64,000 nucleotides of DNA, taken from assembly GCA_014190475.1 (NCBI GenBank), contig BJGL01000002.1, forward strand, positions 1 to 64,000. Direction: 5' to 3'. Position 1 is the first letter of the stretch, and every line of letters begins with the position of its first letter. The translations under genes were made by a program, and so were the position numbers. Below, piece after piece: positions 51,466 through 60,925 of the stretch. This stretch comes from Bacteroidota bacterium (GTDB lineage: Bacteria > Bacteroidota > Bacteroidia > Chitinophagales > Chitinophagaceae). The notes beneath the pieces are model-generated. The model had not been told where the DNA came from. It saw only the letters and a program-made list of their open reading frames with translations, and did no database searches.

Positions 51466-52866
51466 ATGGTTAAGTCAAATTATCTCCTCTGTTTTATAGC
51501 AACACTTTGTATAGCTGGATTGAGCTATGGACAACAACGCCCAATTGGTGTATTTGATTCTGGTACGGGCGGTTTAACTGTGTTGGAAGCTATGCTATCG
51601 CTGGATGCTTTTAACAATAAAACCGGAGAGCAAAAGCCAGATGGCGTTCCAGATTTTTCAGGAGAATATTTTCATTATTTGGCAGATCAAGCTAACATGC
51701 CCTATGGAAACTATGCTTCAGAGGGTAAAACTGCATTTTTGAAGGAGCAAATACTGCGCTGCATGTCTTTTCTCTACTCGGATACCACGTATGCTATTCG
51801 AAAAAATGAAGCGTATTCATTTTCTCCAAAGCAAACTGCAAAAATGATTGTTGTGGCCTGTAATACGGCTACTGCATACGCCTTGCCTGAAATCAAAATG
51901 TCTGTAGGTGAAAGTGTACCCGTGGTAGGTGTGATTGATGCAGGTTGTAAAGCGGCACTCACTTATCAGCAAAAAGAAAGAGGAACCATTGGTGTTTTTG
52001 CCACGGTGGGTACGGTGGCTTCTGATGGTTACCCTAAAACACTTCGCCGTCTATCTGCGTTTGTCGGCCTCTCTAATTTGTCGATTGTTAGTCAGGGGGG
52101 CTATGGTTTGGCGGAGAGTATCGATCGGGATTGGAGTTTTTTAGCTGATCAGGTAAGTAAAATCCGAGCTGATTATAAAGGACCATCGCTCACGCACTCA
52201 CAGTACCGTATTGACACATCGCTTGCTGCTGTCTATGGATTCAGTAGGAATGGTAATAGTTTGCTATGTGAATATGACGAAAAGGGCAATTGCACGGAAA
52301 TGCAATTGAATGACCCAGTTAATTACGTTCGCTATCATCTAGTCAGTTTACTGGAAAAAATGAAACGGGAGCAATATCAAGCGCCTTTGAATACATTAAT
52401 TCTTGGTTGTACACATTACCCTTACATGCGTGATACAATCGCTCAGGTTCTTCTGGAGCTCTATAACTATCAGGAAGGGGGGGCTTACCGCTATCGTAAG
52501 GTTTTGGCAAAAACCGTATGTTTAATTGATCCTGCTGTTGAGACTGCAAAGGAAGCTTATCTGGCACTTCGCCATTTACGTAAACTCCAACATAACGAGG
52601 CCTCCTTTCAAAATGGAACTAGGCCCGATGCTTTTTTTATTGCTGTTCCCAACTTGGATTTGCCCGAGGTTAAGCTTCAGTCAGACGGATGGTTCACGTA
52701 TAATTATAAGTATGGTAGAACTGAAGGGGAAAACAAGCAGTATGTCCGGTTTGTACCCTTTGATACCCAGAATATTGCTCCGGCCACCTATGATCGCTTT
52801 AAAAGGGCCTTACCCTTTTCCTATGATCGACTAAATCGGTTGGGTATACTTTCTCAAATACGATGA
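51466..52866 (+). CDS. Exported Asp/Glu racemase family protein (MurI homologue with signal peptide)
   Basis: MVKSNYLLCFIATLCIAGLSYGQQ signal peptide; RPIGVFDSGTGGLTVLEAM, VVACNTATAYALPEI, LILGCTHYPYMRD catalytic motifs. Confidence 0.88.
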   Translation: MVKSNYLLCFIATLCIAGLSYGQQRPIGVFDSGTGGLTVLEAMLSLDAFNNKTGEQKPDGVPDFSGEYFHYLADQANMPYGNYASEGKTAFLKEQILRCMSFLYSDTTYAIRKNEAYSFSPKQTAKMIVVACNTATAYALPEIKMSVGESVPVVGVIDAGCKAALTYQQKERGTIGVFATVGTVASDGYPKTLRRLSAFVGLSNLSIVSQGGYGLAESIDRDWSFLADQVSKIRADYKGPSLTHSQYRIDTSLAAVYGFSRNGNSLLCEYDEKGNCTEMQLNDPVNYVRYHLVSLLEKMKREQYQAPLNTLILGCTHYPYMRDTIAQVLLELYNYQEGGAYRYRKVLAKTVCLIDPAVETAKEAYLALRHLRKLQHNEASFQNGTRPDAFFIAVPNLDLPEVKLQSDGWFTYNYKYGRTEGENKQYVRFVPFDTQNIAPATYDRFKRALPFSYDRLNRLGILSQIR

Positions 52867-53204
52867 GGGAAATTTAATTGCTCGGATTTTTTATTAAATG
52901 TAGTTCGTATGGCCTCTTCTAACTCTATATCCAATAAAGAGGCTAATAAGTCCAAGTAAATTGCTATTCCACCAATTTCTTCTTGGAGCATTTTCTTGTC
53001 TATATCGCAGGCTTTATAGCTGCTGCCACCATCTATCCCTCCTTTTTCTACTCGTTGCAGTTTTTTAATCATATTACATAACTCGCCAACCTCACCTGCC
53101 AAGGCAGTGGTCCAGTAGGTTAATGGTTGGTTTTGATAACAGTTAAACCCATTAATGGCCCTGTCTACATTGGTTGCTCTAAAGGTTGGGAGGTGGAGTG
53201 GCAT
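52854..53204 (-). CDS. MazG-like nucleotide pyrophosphohydrolase
   Basis: ALAGEVGELCNMIKKLQR...DKKMLQEEIGGIAIYLDLLASLLDIELEEAIRTTFNKKSEQLNF. Confidence 0.85.
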   Translation of the reverse strand: MPLHLPTFRATNVDRAINGFNCYQNQPLTYWTTALAGEVGELCNMIKKLQRVEKGGIDGGSSYKACDIDKKMLQEEIGGIAIYLDLLASLLDIELEEAIRTTFNKKSEQLNFPHRI

Positions 53205-53253: not shown

Positions 53254-54744
53254 GTGCAAAAATCAATTCTTCTTTGTTGTTTGCTTTCCTCCTTTTTTCA
53301 GGTGGTGGCCCAACCAATGCAATCGACGTTGCTTTATAAGTTGTACAAGACGCAGGCACCTGTCAATCAAATTTTTGCTCCGAACCTCAATAACTTATTT
53401 TCAGTAAGCAAAAATTATACTGATAATAAACAGTATTTAATCAAAACCAGTAAGCAATTGTTCCTGGGAATTGATGGTACGGGGCAGTTATATGAGATTT
53501 TTGAAGCAAGTCCTGGGGTACTAGATGCCCAACGCGTTGACTCGACTGTCTATGCAGGAAATAATTTTTGTGCGGCTACTTTTTCCATTGATACAGCAGT
53601 TTTCTCATTCGGAGGTTACGGTTTTTGGAAAACAAATGGGACGTTAAAGCAGTATAATTTCTACTCTCGGGAATGGGATGTGGTTCCATTGCTGGAGGAG
53701 CGCCCCTCGATTTTTTGTCAGAAGCCATCTGGGGTTAATTGGAAAGGGGATTTAAATGAGGTAAAAAAGCTTGAGGACATGAATACAACATTTGCGCCGT
53801 CCTTTTACTGGGTTGATAACGAGAAAAAACTTTTTTATGCAGGTGTGCAACATCTGATTAATCAAACTATTTCCGATAGTGTACAAACTTTCAAAGCTCA
53901 ATATAATGCCTCGCTGAGTGTGCTGGATCTTTCCACCAAGCAATGGAAAGTACTGGGAGATATTCTTAATTATGGTTGGCATTATACGGTGCAACTTCCC
54001 TGGGGCTTATTGGTAGTAGAATCGCCCGAGTCAATTTATTATACCGATTTCGATCATAACCGACTCCTCTATTGTAAAGAGGATAAAATTCCGCAGTATC
54101 GTAAATTTTTTCGAAATAGGATTCCAGATCTTTTTTTCTATGCCGATGGGTATATTTATTTTGGAGAAGTTGCAATAAATTCCATCGACAGTATCCCTGT
54201 ATCTAAAGAGGACTTTGAAGAACGTAATGCACTTCTCTATACCGCAACAAAAAAAGTAAGTAAAATCTCCTTACTCTACGATAATTATCGAATACCATTT
54301 TTCTTTGTCTTGTTTGCGAGTGTAGTCGTTTTAATCGTTGCTTTTAGAAGAAAGAGTCAAAACCGGGCTAATAAATCTGCATTCGTATCGCCAACTGTGT
54401 TGCCCACTCAATTACCCTTGGTGGATCGAATAGGAATTCTAAACGAAATGGAACGACAGCTTATCCTTTATTTGGTTGAGCAATCTTTACAAGGGAAGCG
54501 GGTAACTGTAGAGGCAGTTAATAAATTATCAGGTGTGGCTTTTAAGAATGAACCTATCCGTAGGCGTACCCGAAGTGAGTTGATTAATGCCATTAATGAT
54601 AAATGGTTGATTATTTCAGGAAACCGTGAACGATTTGTGCTTTCTGAAAAATCTGATTTTGATGGTCGTACCCGCGAATATTTTATCAATGAAAAATTAT
54701 TAGCCTCTTCACTGTTGCGACAGATTATTCAGCTGATCAAGTAG
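53254..54744 (+). CDS. Uncharacterised single-TM protein: signal peptide, large extracytoplasmic domain, TM, cytoplasmic winged-helix-like tail
   Basis: GTG start; MQKSILLCCLLSSFFQVVAQ signal peptide; kelch-like FSFGGYGFWKTNGTLKQYNFYSREWDVV; TM IPFFFVLFASVVVLIVAF; tail NEMERQLILYLVEQSLQGKRVTVEAVNKLSG...RRRTRSELINAINDKW. Confidence 0.72.
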   Translation: MQKSILLCCLLSSFFQVVAQPMQSTLLYKLYKTQAPVNQIFAPNLNNLFSVSKNYTDNKQYLIKTSKQLFLGIDGTGQLYEIFEASPGVLDAQRVDSTVYAGNNFCAATFSIDTAVFSFGGYGFWKTNGTLKQYNFYSREWDVVPLLEERPSIFCQKPSGVNWKGDLNEVKKLEDMNTTFAPSFYWVDNEKKLFYAGVQHLINQTISDSVQTFKAQYNASLSVLDLSTKQWKVLGDILNYGWHYTVQLPWGLLVVESPESIYYTDFDHNRLLYCKEDKIPQYRKFFRNRIPDLFFYADGYIYFGEVAINSIDSIPVSKEDFEERNALLYTATKKVSKISLLYDNYRIPFFFVLFASVVVLIVAFRRKSQNRANKSAFVSPTVLPTQLPLVDRIGILNEMERQLILYLVEQSLQGKRVTVEAVNKLSGVAFKNEPIRRRTRSELINAINDKWLIISGNRERFVLSEKSDFDGRTREYFINEKLLASSLLRQIIQLIK

Positions 54745-56591: not shown

Positions 56592-58520
56592 TTAATAAGG
56601 ATATCGTACAAAGGCCTCCACGGCAGCGTAATGCGTAAGACCAAGGTCGGCGTACAAAGAGGCTGTATGAGCGTTTCGTTCTTCGGCTCTTTGCCAAAAC
56701 TCCCTTGAATCAGCTCCCTGAAAAGGAACCATATCCTTTTGGGACTGATGAATAAATATTCCATACCGCTTTTTCATGACCTGATCCGGGCTCATGGGTA
56801 CAGCCATTTCGATATCCTCAATGTTCCACTCCTGCCAGGCCCCTTTGTAAAGCCAGAGCCAGCAATCCTCCACCCAGGGCTCTTGTAAAGCCTTGAGTCG
56901 TTTTAAAGCCTCTACAACCACTGTAAAGCAAACTTTGTGCGTACCATGAGGATCTGCAAAATCGCCAGCACAGTACACCTGGTGTGGTTTTATAGCGCGG
57001 AGCAAATCCATGGTTTGCTTGATGTCTTTGTCTCCAGCAGGTTTTTTCTGGATTGTTCCTGTTTCGTAGAAGGGTAATTGCTGGAAATGAACATTATTTT
57101 CCTGGATCCCCACGTACCGGCAGGTAGCCTTGGCTTCCCCTTGTCTGATCAGCGCCTTTATTTTTCTGATAGACGGTGTATCAATCTGGTTAGACTTTTT
57201 TCGAGTTAAAAATCTTCTGGCATCTTTTACAAATTCAATCGACTTTCTGGTAGGGCTTCCCAGTACAGATTCAAAACCAATTGCAAAGTCTAGGTATCGT
57301 GTTACAAACTCATCTGTTACAGCAATGTTTCCGCTAGTCTGATAGGCAACATGTACCTCATTGCCCTGATCGTGTAGTCGTTGAAAAGTTCCTCCCATGC
57401 TGATAATATCATCGTCGGGATGGGGAGAAAAAATGACCACTCTCTTAGGCCATGGAGTGGATCGCTCCGGATGTGCAGGAATATCCGCATTTGGTTTTCC
57501 AGCTGGCCAACCTGTTAGCGTATCACGAAGCATATAATAAACTTGCAAGTTGATTTCATAGGCATCTCCTTTCTCAACCAGCAAGTCTCCTAATCCAAAT
57601 TCATTGTAGTCACTGTTGGTAAGACTCAATACAGGCTTTTTTAATTCTAAAGCCATATTGACCACTGCTTTTTTTATAAGACGTGGCGTCCATTCGCATT
57701 CACCCGTTAACCAGGGAGATTTAAATCGAGTTAATTCCGTAGCAGCATCTTGATCAATCACAAATTGAACATCATCATGGGCCTGAAGAAGGGAAGCGGG
57801 TAACGATTCTGTCATTTCCTCTTCCACTGCTTTTTTAATGACTGGAGCTTTCCCTGACCCCCAAGCCATTAATATAATTTTCTTAGAACGCAGAATAGTT
57901 TGTATTCCCATCGTTAATGCAAGACGGGGAACCTCGGCAATGTTGGCAAACTCATAGGAATTTGCAAGCCGGGTGGAATTATCCAAGTTAATTAATCGCG
58001 TTTTGGAATGCAGGCCAGATCCGGGTTCATTAAAACCAATATGTCCATTATTACCAATGCCCAAAATTTGTAAATCAATTCCACCTGCTGCTTCAATTTT
58101 CTTTTCGTACTCGTTGCAATGCTCTTTTATTTTATCTTTTTCGATCTCCCCATTGGGTATGTGAATATTCTTGGGGTTGATGTCAATATGGTCAAATAAC
58201 TGCTGATGCATGAAGCGATAATAGCTTTGCAAAGCATTTCGCTCAATGGGGTAGTATTCATCAAGATTAAAGGTCACCACATTTTTAAAACTCAATCCTT
58301 CTTCTTTATGCAGCTTAACTAACGCTGCGTAAAGCGATTTTGGGGTAGAACCGGTGGCTAGTCCTAATACTAGTTTTTCCTTCTTTTTTTGTTTAGAGCG
58401 AATTAAAGCTGCTATTTGTCTGGCAACCCAATCTGAACCCTCTATGGCATTTTCTACAATTTTTGTGGAAACTCTTTCAAAACTGTCGGCAAAATTGGGG
58501 GAGGGTTGGTTCTCTGACAT
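56592..58520 (-). CDS. nagB: Glucosamine-6-phosphate deaminase (NagB) fused to a C-terminal PIG-L/LmbE-family deacetylase domain
   Basis: LGLATGSTPKSLYAALV...NLDEYYPI...GIGNNGHIGFNEPGS; C-terminal VVIFSPHPDDDIISMGGTFQRL...DPHGTHKVCF. Confidence 0.93.
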   Translation of the reverse strand: MSENQPSPNFADSFERVSTKIVENAIEGSDWVARQIAALIRSKQKKKEKLVLGLATGSTPKSLYAALVKLHKEEGLSFKNVVTFNLDEYYPIERNALQSYYRFMHQQLFDHIDINPKNIHIPNGEIEKDKIKEHCNEYEKKIEAAGGIDLQILGIGNNGHIGFNEPGSGLHSKTRLINLDNSTRLANSYEFANIAEVPRLALTMGIQTILRSKKIILMAWGSGKAPVIKKAVEEEMTESLPASLLQAHDDVQFVIDQDAATELTRFKSPWLTGECEWTPRLIKKAVVNMALELKKPVLSLTNSDYNEFGLGDLLVEKGDAYEINLQVYYMLRDTLTGWPAGKPNADIPAHPERSTPWPKRVVIFSPHPDDDIISMGGTFQRLHDQGNEVHVAYQTSGNIAVTDEFVTRYLDFAIGFESVLGSPTRKSIEFVKDARRFLTRKKSNQIDTPSIRKIKALIRQGEAKATCRYVGIQENNVHFQQLPFYETGTIQKKPAGDKDIKQTMDLLRAIKPHQVYCAGDFADPHGTHKVCFTVVVEALKRLKALQEPWVEDCWLWLYKGAWQEWNIEDIEMAVPMSPDQVMKKRYGIFIHQSQKDMVPFQGADSREFWQRAEERNAHTASLYADLGLTHYAAVEAFVRYPY

Positions 58521-58603: not shown

Positions 58604-60925
58604 TTAATCGACTTGTATTTCATCAATAAAAAGCCAAGGCTTATTGCCTTCGCCCGGATTTCCAGCAGGAATTAGTCCATAATTCTTTATTAAAACTTTA
58701 ATAAATCTTGTTTTTTCATTGAAAATGAATGGAATATAGCCTATGTTATTATCTTCTGACTCAAACACTAATTTAGTTGCGCTTCCAATTGTTTTGAAAT
58801 TAATCCCATCCATAGAAATGGAAACTTGCATCTCTTGCGGCCTGTGAATCCAGCTACTGGGTTGATGAAGAAAATAACCTTTGACTGTTCGTACTGGCAT
58901 GGTTTTGCCCAGGTCGATGGTAGCCTCCATATCTCCTCCATCAAATCCAAGGTAATTTCTAAAATGTACATTTTTGCCAGGTTGGCTTCTTATCCCGTTA
59001 ACCAAGGTGAATCCACCGTTACCGGGATAGCTTTTGGAAGGTTGAACTTTTAATGTAATATCCTTACCGGTTGCTTTGTTGATTTCAAATTTTTGGAAGT
59101 AGGTACTCTTCACCTCTCTGTTTTTATCAATATACTGCGCTTGATAAACGCCAGAGGACTGAACAATAACCGGTTTTTCATAGCTGGATTTTGTAGGAGA
59201 AACCCATTGAATTTTTCCCTCTGAAGATTTACTACTCAATGCGAGTTCTATACCATTTTTATTTTGATCGGGACTTACTTTGCTTACCATTTCGAAATAG
59301 GCCATACTGGGTTTAATTCCCCATTGCTCATATCTTTTGAGCAATGGACTAATTTTCATTTCGAATTCGGTCCAGTTTTTTTTGTCGAGTGGAGTCCAAA
59401 GCAACTCACTCAAGGCTGCTATTCGTGGGAAAATCATATAGGCGATCTTCTCCTCATTTTTCATATACTCTGTCCACACATTTGCCTGTGCCCCAAGCAC
59501 CAGGTTGGCATTACTAGCAGGAATTTCTGCTGGCAAGGGATTGTAAGCGTATACTTTTTCAATGGGGTTGTAGCCGCCAATGGTCACGGAGTCCTCTGTT
59601 AAAGCCTGCGTGTGATCAAAATAAACGGGATTGCCAGGTGTCATAATCACTGCATGTCCTTGCTTTGCCGCTTCAATTCCTCCGGCCTCGCCACGCCAAC
59701 TCATCACAATGGCATTGGGGGCTAATCCGCCTTCCAAAATCTCATCCCAACCAATTAATATTTTTCCTTTACTGTTAAGATATTTTTCAATGCGCTGGAT
59801 AAAATAGCTCTGCAATTCATGTTCATCTTTTAGTTGAAGTTCTTTCATTCTTTGTTGGCACAACGAACATTGCTTCCAATGTGTTTTAGGACATTCATCT
59901 CCGCCTATATGAAAGTAAGGGGAGGGGAATAGTGGGATTATTTCATCAATTACATTTTGAAGAAATTCAAAAGTGGTTTCCTTACCTGCGCAGAACACAT
60001 CGTCAAATACACCCCAGGTTTCCTGTACTAATTTGATTTCTCCATTTTTTTGTGCTTCCATTGATTTTTGTGAGATCATATTGGAAGGGATCACGGTTGG
60101 TCTACTGGGAAAACAGCTTAAGTAAGGATAAGCAGCTATCGCGGCACTACTGTGCCCGGGCATTTCAATCTCAGGAATTACCTCTACAAATCGTGCTTGC
60201 GCATAGGCAACCACTTCTCTGATGTCCGCTTGTGTGTAGAAGCCACCGTATCGAATATTATCATTCCCTCTTCCGGGGTAACGACCTATGATTGTACCAT
60301 TTCTCCAGGCTCCCACCATGGTGAGTGCAGGGTATTTTTTTATTTCAACCCTCCACCCCTGGTCTTCCGTTAAATGCCAATGGAATTTATTGAGTTTGTG
60401 GTAGGATAACCAGTCGATATATTTTTTGATAAAGCTGACGGGGAAAAAATGTCTGCCCACATCCAAGTGCATGCCCCTGTATTGAAAACGAGGAAAATCC
60501 TCAATTTTCAGATAAGGTATTACCAGTTGATTGTTATGGCCAAGCGTAATTAATTGCAACAAAGTCTGATTAGCATGATGCAAGGCTTCTGCGGTGTTTA
60601 CAGTAATCGAGATGCCTTCTTTGTTTACAAGTAGTTCATACGAGGGGGTATTATTCCCCTTTCCAACTTTATGATTGATTTGAATGGTAGCTTGTTGCTT
60701 GGAGTTGGCAGCAGCTAGTTGAATATGATATTGCTTTTGTAATTCATCTGCTAGCAAACGAATGGTATTGCTTGAGGATACCTGTTCGTTATCTAAAAAA
60801 TAAGTACAATTTGTAGGTAAGGAAAAAGTTCCTTCTCCCTGCATCCAATAAGCAGGCGTTGGAACAACAAGTTGTTGGGATATTCCGAGCAATGGAAGAG
60901 TCAACAAAAATAAAAGAAGACGCAT
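58604..60925 (-). CDS. Beta-N-acetylhexosaminidase (GH20) with C-terminal discoidin-like region
   Basis: FPRFQYRGMHLDVGRHFFPVSFIKKYIDWLSYHKLNKFHWHLTEDQGWRVEIKKYPAL; FHIGGDECPKTHWK. Confidence 0.95.
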   Translation of the reverse strand: MRLLLFLLTLPLLGISQQLVVPTPAYWMQGEGTFSLPTNCTYFLDNEQVSSSNTIRLLADELQKQYHIQLAAANSKQQATIQINHKVGKGNNTPSYELLVNKEGISITVNTAEALHHANQTLLQLITLGHNNQLVIPYLKIEDFPRFQYRGMHLDVGRHFFPVSFIKKYIDWLSYHKLNKFHWHLTEDQGWRVEIKKYPALTMVGAWRNGTIIGRYPGRGNDNIRYGGFYTQADIREVVAYAQARFVEVIPEIEMPGHSSAAIAAYPYLSCFPSRPTVIPSNMISQKSMEAQKNGEIKLVQETWGVFDDVFCAGKETTFEFLQNVIDEIIPLFPSPYFHIGGDECPKTHWKQCSLCQQRMKELQLKDEHELQSYFIQRIEKYLNSKGKILIGWDEILEGGLAPNAIVMSWRGEAGGIEAAKQGHAVIMTPGNPVYFDHTQALTEDSVTIGGYNPIEKVYAYNPLPAEIPASNANLVLGAQANVWTEYMKNEEKIAYMIFPRIAALSELLWTPLDKKNWTEFEMKISPLLKRYEQWGIKPSMAYFEMVSKVSPDQNKNGIELALSSKSSEGKIQWVSPTKSSYEKPVIVQSSGVYQAQYIDKNREVKSTYFQKFEINKATGKDITLKVQPSKSYPGNGGFTLVNGIRSQPGKNVHFRNYLGFDGGDMEATIDLGKTMPVRTVKGYFLHQPSSWIHRPQEMQVSISMDGINFKTIGSATKLVFESEDNNIGYIPFIFNEKTRFIKVLIKNYGLIPAGNPGEGNKPWLFIDEIQVD

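Follow-up and report, generated by a model that had tools for sequence, protein, structure and literature searches.

What does a protein do that presents a propeller outside the cytoplasmic membrane and a winged-helix-like tail inside it? The question is raised by an open reading frame at positions 53254-54744 of the window (the whole stretch of 64,000 nucleotides analysed here), in which the initial annotation had seen a possible membrane-tethered sensor. We argue that the encoded protein probably belongs to an undescribed family of one-component transcription regulators that span the membrane, a reading whose topology, propeller, winged-helix fold and conserved basic surface are supported by sequence comparison and structure prediction. 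The features of the locus on which the argument draws are listed below.

53254 to 54744, plus strand: the whole gene (496 aa), encoding kelch propeller, transmembrane helix and winged-helix-like tail.
53254 to 53313, plus strand: predicted signal peptide, residues 1-20, with probable cleavage at the VVA/Q boundary.
53317 to 54270, plus strand: predicted extracytoplasmic kelch-type propeller, residues ~22-339, about five four-stranded blades (AF2, Foldseek and HMMs).
53605 to 53682, plus strand: signature stretch FSFGGYGFWKTNG...EW, residues 118-143 (alignment of 28 relatives).
54292 to 54348, plus strand: predicted transmembrane helix, residues 347-365, followed by RRKSQNR.
54352 to 54432, plus strand: flexible, unconserved linker, residues 367-393 (AF2 pLDDT below 50 at residues 374-384).
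54433 to 54693, plus strand: predicted winged-helix core, residues 394-480 (AF2, Foldseek and profile comparisons).
54535 to 54588, plus strand: basic turn and start of helix H3, residues 428-445, ..KNEPIRRRTRSELIN, the predicted DNA-contact surface.
54661 to 54681, plus strand: wing with the invariant D470-x-R472...Y476, aligned with the MarR wing.
52854 to 53204, minus strand: divergent MazG-like neighbour across a 49-bp intergenic gap, syntenic in the related genomes G535 and G491.

An open reading frame scan placed the GTG start at 53254 and the TAG stop at 54742-54744, as annotated before, and the start codon call is supported by the orthologues in G535 (74% identity to the window protein) and G491, as both keep the start position, the former with GTG and the latter with ATG. 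Relative to the G535 orthologue, dN is low in the ectodomain (0.118) and the winged-helix core (0.069) but reaches 0.77 in the transmembrane helix and 0.81 in the linker, with dS at about 1.8-2 or saturated. The reading frame is a functional gene in which both domains are under strong purifying selection while the membrane span and the linker are free to change, the pattern expected of a receptor.

A cleavable-type signal peptide, a single transmembrane segment followed by positive charges and a cytoplasmic tail of about 140 residues had been read from the sequence before. The hydropathy scan found a hydrophobic N-terminus, with its peak at residues 4-22 and a helix at residues 2-18 in the AF2 model; it ends in VVA before Q, a cleavage position read by eye and not by a dedicated predictor. 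One further hydrophobic peak lies at residues 347-365 (mean KD 2.54), is followed by four K/R within 12 residues and is spanned by an AF2 helix (residues 337-372), such that the predictions speak for a segment that does cross the membrane. The same single peak, with three to seven K/R in the next 12 residues, recurs in 27 of the 28 aligned relatives; for L002 the scan chose another segment, and the alignment shows a hydrophobic stretch and RRRKR at the expected position. The tail is cytoplasmic by this topology, as had been claimed, but shorter than stated, with 131 residues after the transmembrane helix. The protein thus unites a transmembrane helix and an extracytoplasmic sensor in one chain that carries no kinase or receiver domain, as do transmembrane regulators as a class, but it has no recognised Pfam DNA-binding domain.

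The extracytoplasmic sequence, about 320 residues long, had been called propeller-like with a kelch-like stretch, a description that the structure prediction bears out. In the AlphaFold model of the full protein (mean pLDDT 83) the blades of the ectodomain are predicted mostly at pLDDT 80-95, the loop at residues 158-179 excepted. The best Foldseek match of the model in the PDB was the kelch propeller of KLHL2 (E=1.9e-8); KEAP1 and YjhT also matched, and the latter, the NanM/YjhT sialate mutarotase (2uvk, E=1.1e-7), is a match of fold. Query-normalised TM-scores of these propeller matches were low (0.33), as expected when one domain of a longer chain is matched, possibly with another number of blades. 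The Kelch_6 model matched the window protein alone only weakly (E=0.054), and Kelch HMMs matched its relatives at up to E=8e-7. Propeller fold by Foldseek and kelch motifs by HMMs, the latter mainly in relatives, together mark the ectodomain as a kelch-repeat propeller. Its GGYGFW...G...EW signature is almost invariant among the aligned relatives, with G120, G121, G123, W125 and W141 invariant across all 28.

The part of the tail that is conserved, residues 394-480, had been described as winged-helix-like, and both AlphaFold and Foldseek point to this fold. Modelled alone with 25 homologues, the tail reached a pLDDT of 93.3 and is predicted to form helices H1 (398-412) and H2 (419-426), a long H3 (433-455) and a two-stranded wing (462-466 and 474-478). 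Among the 50 Foldseek PDB matches listed, nearly all were winged-helix proteins, mostly of the MarR type (PefR, AdcR, MepR, ZitR), at probabilities of up to 0.99 and a best E-value of 0.042, short of 0.001. In comparisons with profiles drawn from related genomes, the tail scored 22.6 against MarR, 24.9 against SARP-like and 22.8 against PhoB-type proteins (column-shuffled maxima 20.5, 18.8 and 16.5, respectively), and two kelch segments used as negative controls scored 9.1 and 11.7. HHalign probabilities to known winged-helix families were low (9-25%), and the profile scores therefore back the fold and not membership of the MarR, SARP or PhoB families. The tail is not described by any model in Pfam or NCBIfam, and no DNA-binding model matched above its cutoff, in keeping with the earlier remark that no named family could be recognised. 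A search of solved structures by sequence yielded nothing meaningful for the whole protein and, with the tail profile, chance-level matches that included MarR-type ZitR entries aligned over the wing.

The dense arginine cluster pointed out in the initial annotation falls where the predicted recognition helix begins, and it is conserved: across the 26 members examined, the turn and the first half of H3, with the invariant R440, always carry a net charge of +2 to +4. N423, G427, R440, D470, R472 and Y476 are invariant in 25-26 closer members, and the D-x-R pair aligns with the wing of MarR proteins, a DNA-contacting element. Judged by its model, the tail may work as a DNA-binding domain even though no Pfam model describes it. 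A weak point of this reading is that winged helices can also serve as protein-binding modules. The protein would then be a membrane receptor whose tail binds a cytoplasmic protein (an anti-sigma factor, polymerase or a regulator partner) and not DNA, which would suit the short linker to the membrane (about 27 residues) and the outcome of the operator search in eight intergenic regions described below, in which none was found. We regard this as unlikely, because conservation in the tail is strongest where the putative recognition helix begins with its basic residues and at the wing D-x-R, which is like that of DNA-binding MarR proteins, and no conserved candidate partner gene adjoins the gene across the family.

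The transcription regulator that we favour instead can be compared with several known systems. ToxR and CadC are likewise one-component proteins with a single transmembrane helix, a winged-helix DNA-binding domain (predicted, in the kelch protein) and an extracytoplasmic sensor, but their order of domains is reversed (PMC9214523): their DNA-binding domain is N-terminal and of the OmpR type, whereas the tail is C-terminal and no match to Trans_reg_C was found in the kelch protein, which places it outside the ToxR/CadC family. The opposite topology had been recognised correctly, but it is not unusual, as it is shared by SusR and the HTCS proteins of the Bacteroidota, in which the DNA-binding domain is C-terminal to the transmembrane segment (PMC3878776), and by a Reg_prop/Y_Y_Y-TM-LuxR (GerE) protein encoded in the window's own genome (G000:C21). 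SusR, which with SusR-like regulators belongs to starch utilisation in Bacteroides, pairs a sensor in the periplasm with a DNA-binding C-terminus that fits no recognised family (PMC3878776); by description it resembles the kelch protein, likewise a membrane protein of the Bacteroidota with a putative sensor outside and a putative DNA-binding region at its cytoplasmic C-terminus. The Reg_prop/Y_Y_Y-TM-LuxR proteins share the periplasmic propeller, the single transmembrane helix and the C-terminal helix-turn-helix, but have a Reg_prop and Y_Y_Y sensor, a long coiled coil and a GerE helix-turn-helix in place of kelch and winged helix. Closer in layout are kelch-TM-SARP-like long forms from the same family of genomes, in which both the kelch signature (E about 1e-4 to 1e-6) and, by profile, the winged helix are weakly similar to those of the window type; they differ in their length (790-930 aa), an extra N-terminal domain, a W-x-[DN] SARP-like helix and a BTAD-like region, the BTAD match being weak (E=0.013, in one long form).

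MarR proteins provide the best structural matches of the tail, sharing the winged-helix core and the aligned D-x-R of the wing at weak E-values, but they are soluble, and the 103-aa tail has no room for their dimerisation helices: of the flanking helices (alpha1, alpha5 and alpha6) it shows only a short C-terminal helix (residues 486-495). The Pfam MarR model did not match the window protein and matched single relatives at chance level (E 0.12-0.13). The winged helices of OmpR/PhoB and SARP proteins have an N-terminal beta-sheet before the helices, whereas the tail model has no strands before H1; no Pfam match assigns the tail to them, and the profile similarity is weak, though above shuffles. 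A link to DUF6377 (PF19904), whose proteins consist of a TPR-like N-terminus, a transmembrane helix, a coil and a helix-turn-helix, was considered because the tail of one relative in family f23 of the phylum matched PF19904 below cutoff (E=1.3e-4), with similar partial matches within the genus, and was rejected as the model did not align to window-type tails (score 10.9 versus a null mean of 13.1). Literature searches turned up no account of a kelch-type transmembrane regulator from Bacteroidota. In the published census, transmembrane transcription regulators were identified through Pfam DNA-binding models (PMC10269533); this family would have escaped it, since the tail has no such model. The layout is thus known in Bacteroidota; its combination with this tail is unnamed, and ordinary in principle.

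Near full-length members occur in about 25 of 399 sampled genomes of the window's family, with up to four in each, and in 13 of the 104 genera sampled; most other matches in the 399 genomes fall on proteins of 790-930 aa, whose kelch part is weakly similar. The gene is carried by 12 of the 42 genomes of the genus and is therefore patchy and accessory, and the window's own genome has a second copy (G000:C10, 26% identical). Divergent relatives with the same layout of signal peptide, propeller, transmembrane helix and tail are found in families f8 and f23, and the f23 genome G568 holds eight matches; tandem pairs occur there (L224 and L225) and in G546 (L229) and G750 (L280). The f23 tails form two groups, one clearly homologous to the window-type tail (hhalign probability 98.7) and one remoter (81 over 42 columns) that keeps the blocks R...RKKLI..IN and RS..DKR; the comparison of the tail profile groups T1-T3 was significant, scoring 34.0 over 42 columns where the null did not exceed 15.2. 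Searching the phylum with the tail revealed no tail without a kelch ectodomain, and no match to the protein was found in plasmid records. Three f23 proteins (L149, L151 and L153) are ~730-750 aa long, an additional N-terminal segment preceding the propeller, and a weak OB-fold match was seen in L055. Two copies look damaged: L062 (G126:C4 near 440121) has an in-frame TAG near its N-terminus, and is probably decayed or affected by a sequence error, and L286 (G770:C4:971219-972634) lies in three overlapping frames, a probable pseudogene.

The genes around the window's kelch gene are the divergent MazG-like gene, possibly a target of the regulator or a mere neighbour, and a convergent SDR gene on the other side. 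G535 and G491 retain the two genes, but they retain the entire region too, with synteny seen within the genus only, and this conservation therefore says little. Conservation of neighbours had been proposed as a check, and no neighbour is kept across the whole family. The upstream gene is divergent in 35 of about 50 loci in which it is in view, a count that includes orthologous and hence not independent loci. No theme was seen among the neighbours of f23 members. A functional operon at the paralogue G000:C10 was considered and dismissed, its mixed neighbours (MBL/beta-CASP nuclease, DUF4442, PLP decarboxylase, ScpB and an ATP synthase subunit) having no functional theme. In G073 a microbial rhodopsin gene (L059, 5685-6443, minus strand) is divergent from the kelch gene, a single case. 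Elsewhere in the window, 51466-52866 (plus strand) encodes a glutamate-racemase-like protein of 466 aa (IGVFDSGTGG motif, Asp_Glu_race E=1.3e-9) that is larger than ordinary MurI, is 77-78% conserved in G535 and G491 and has an apparent signal peptide, which is unusual as it implies an exported racemase-like protein; 56592-58520 (minus strand) encodes a fusion of a glucosamine-6-phosphate isomerase-like domain with a PIG-L deacetylase domain and adjoins a glycosidase-like gene (GH20 by eye, 58604-60925), a probable amino-sugar cluster.

One neighbour does recur. A LamG lipoprotein gene is adjacent to, upstream of and divergent from the kelch gene at eight loci from seven genera (L058, L061, L062, L064, L068, L069, L274 and L276), its product having a lipobox, in most cases a coiled coil or Ig/fn3-like segment, and then LamG. 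As the genomes concerned have only two to four LamG matches each at E<=1e-10, repeated chance adjacency is very unlikely, and the six of these members included in the tree sit at four separate positions, so the association is either old and often lost or was made several times. No operator is claimed at these loci: the 13-mer TTCGTAATTCACC, common to the intergenic regions of the sister loci L061 and L062, and words of the AGGTTACTAA type seemed promising on visual inspection, TAGGTTACTAATTAAT-like words are common to L064 and L069, and L058 has three 12-bp direct repeats, but no word from the eight intergenic regions beat dinucleotide shuffles. The kelch protein might sense together with the divergent lipoprotein, as ToxR does with ToxS, and regulate the LamG gene. 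Beyond the recurrent adjacency and the scatter on the tree, such a two-gene receptor would accord with the N-terminus of the long-form kelch-SARP proteins, which is weakly like LamG lipoproteins (hhalign 36.3 versus a null maximum of 16.9, 34 columns); we nevertheless hold it to be quite improbable, because the pairing involves a minority of members, LamG matches at E<=1e-10 are absent from the window's own genome, and a plain pair of regulator and target accounts equally well for the adjacency.

For the membrane-bound transcription regulator that we prefer, we infer DNA binding by the tail, a ligand, a signalling mechanism and targets along the following lines. The exported kelch propeller would bind an envelope or extracellular cue, perhaps a glycan or an envelope protein, both of which are guesses. 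The signal would cross the single transmembrane helix and the flexible linker to alter the oligomeric state or the position of the winged-helix tail. While still anchored in the membrane, the tail would bind DNA, inserting the basic N-terminal half-turn region of helix 3 into the major groove and contacting the minor groove through the D-x-R wing. The regulator's own promoter and nearby, often divergent, genes would be the probable targets. That the envelope signal instead triggers cleavage near the transmembrane helix and lets the tail diffuse to its targets would agree with the disordered, unconserved linker, but is very improbable, as the linker has no conserved stretch that could be a protease site, no protease gene is consistently adjacent and action at the membrane is the simpler default for transmembrane regulators (PMC10269533).

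A bolder proposition is possible, although on balance we doubt it: the tail might found an undescribed winged-helix DNA-binding family that is used almost only C-terminally on membrane kelch receptors of the Bacteroidota. Its divergent sub-forms would be the short type found in the window's family, a 'WPD..YDYRR' type from f23 and other f23 tails that carry an additional strand-like segment at the N-terminus; part of the family would form a receptor pair with a divergently encoded LamG lipoprotein, unseen by Pfam-based censuses. The general picture of bacterial signalling is left unchanged by this family. With members in roughly an eighth or more of the sampled genera, however, kelch proteins of this layout add a combination of sensor and tail to the repertoire of the Bacteroidota, and the loci with LamG lipoproteins offer a testable pair of regulator and target.
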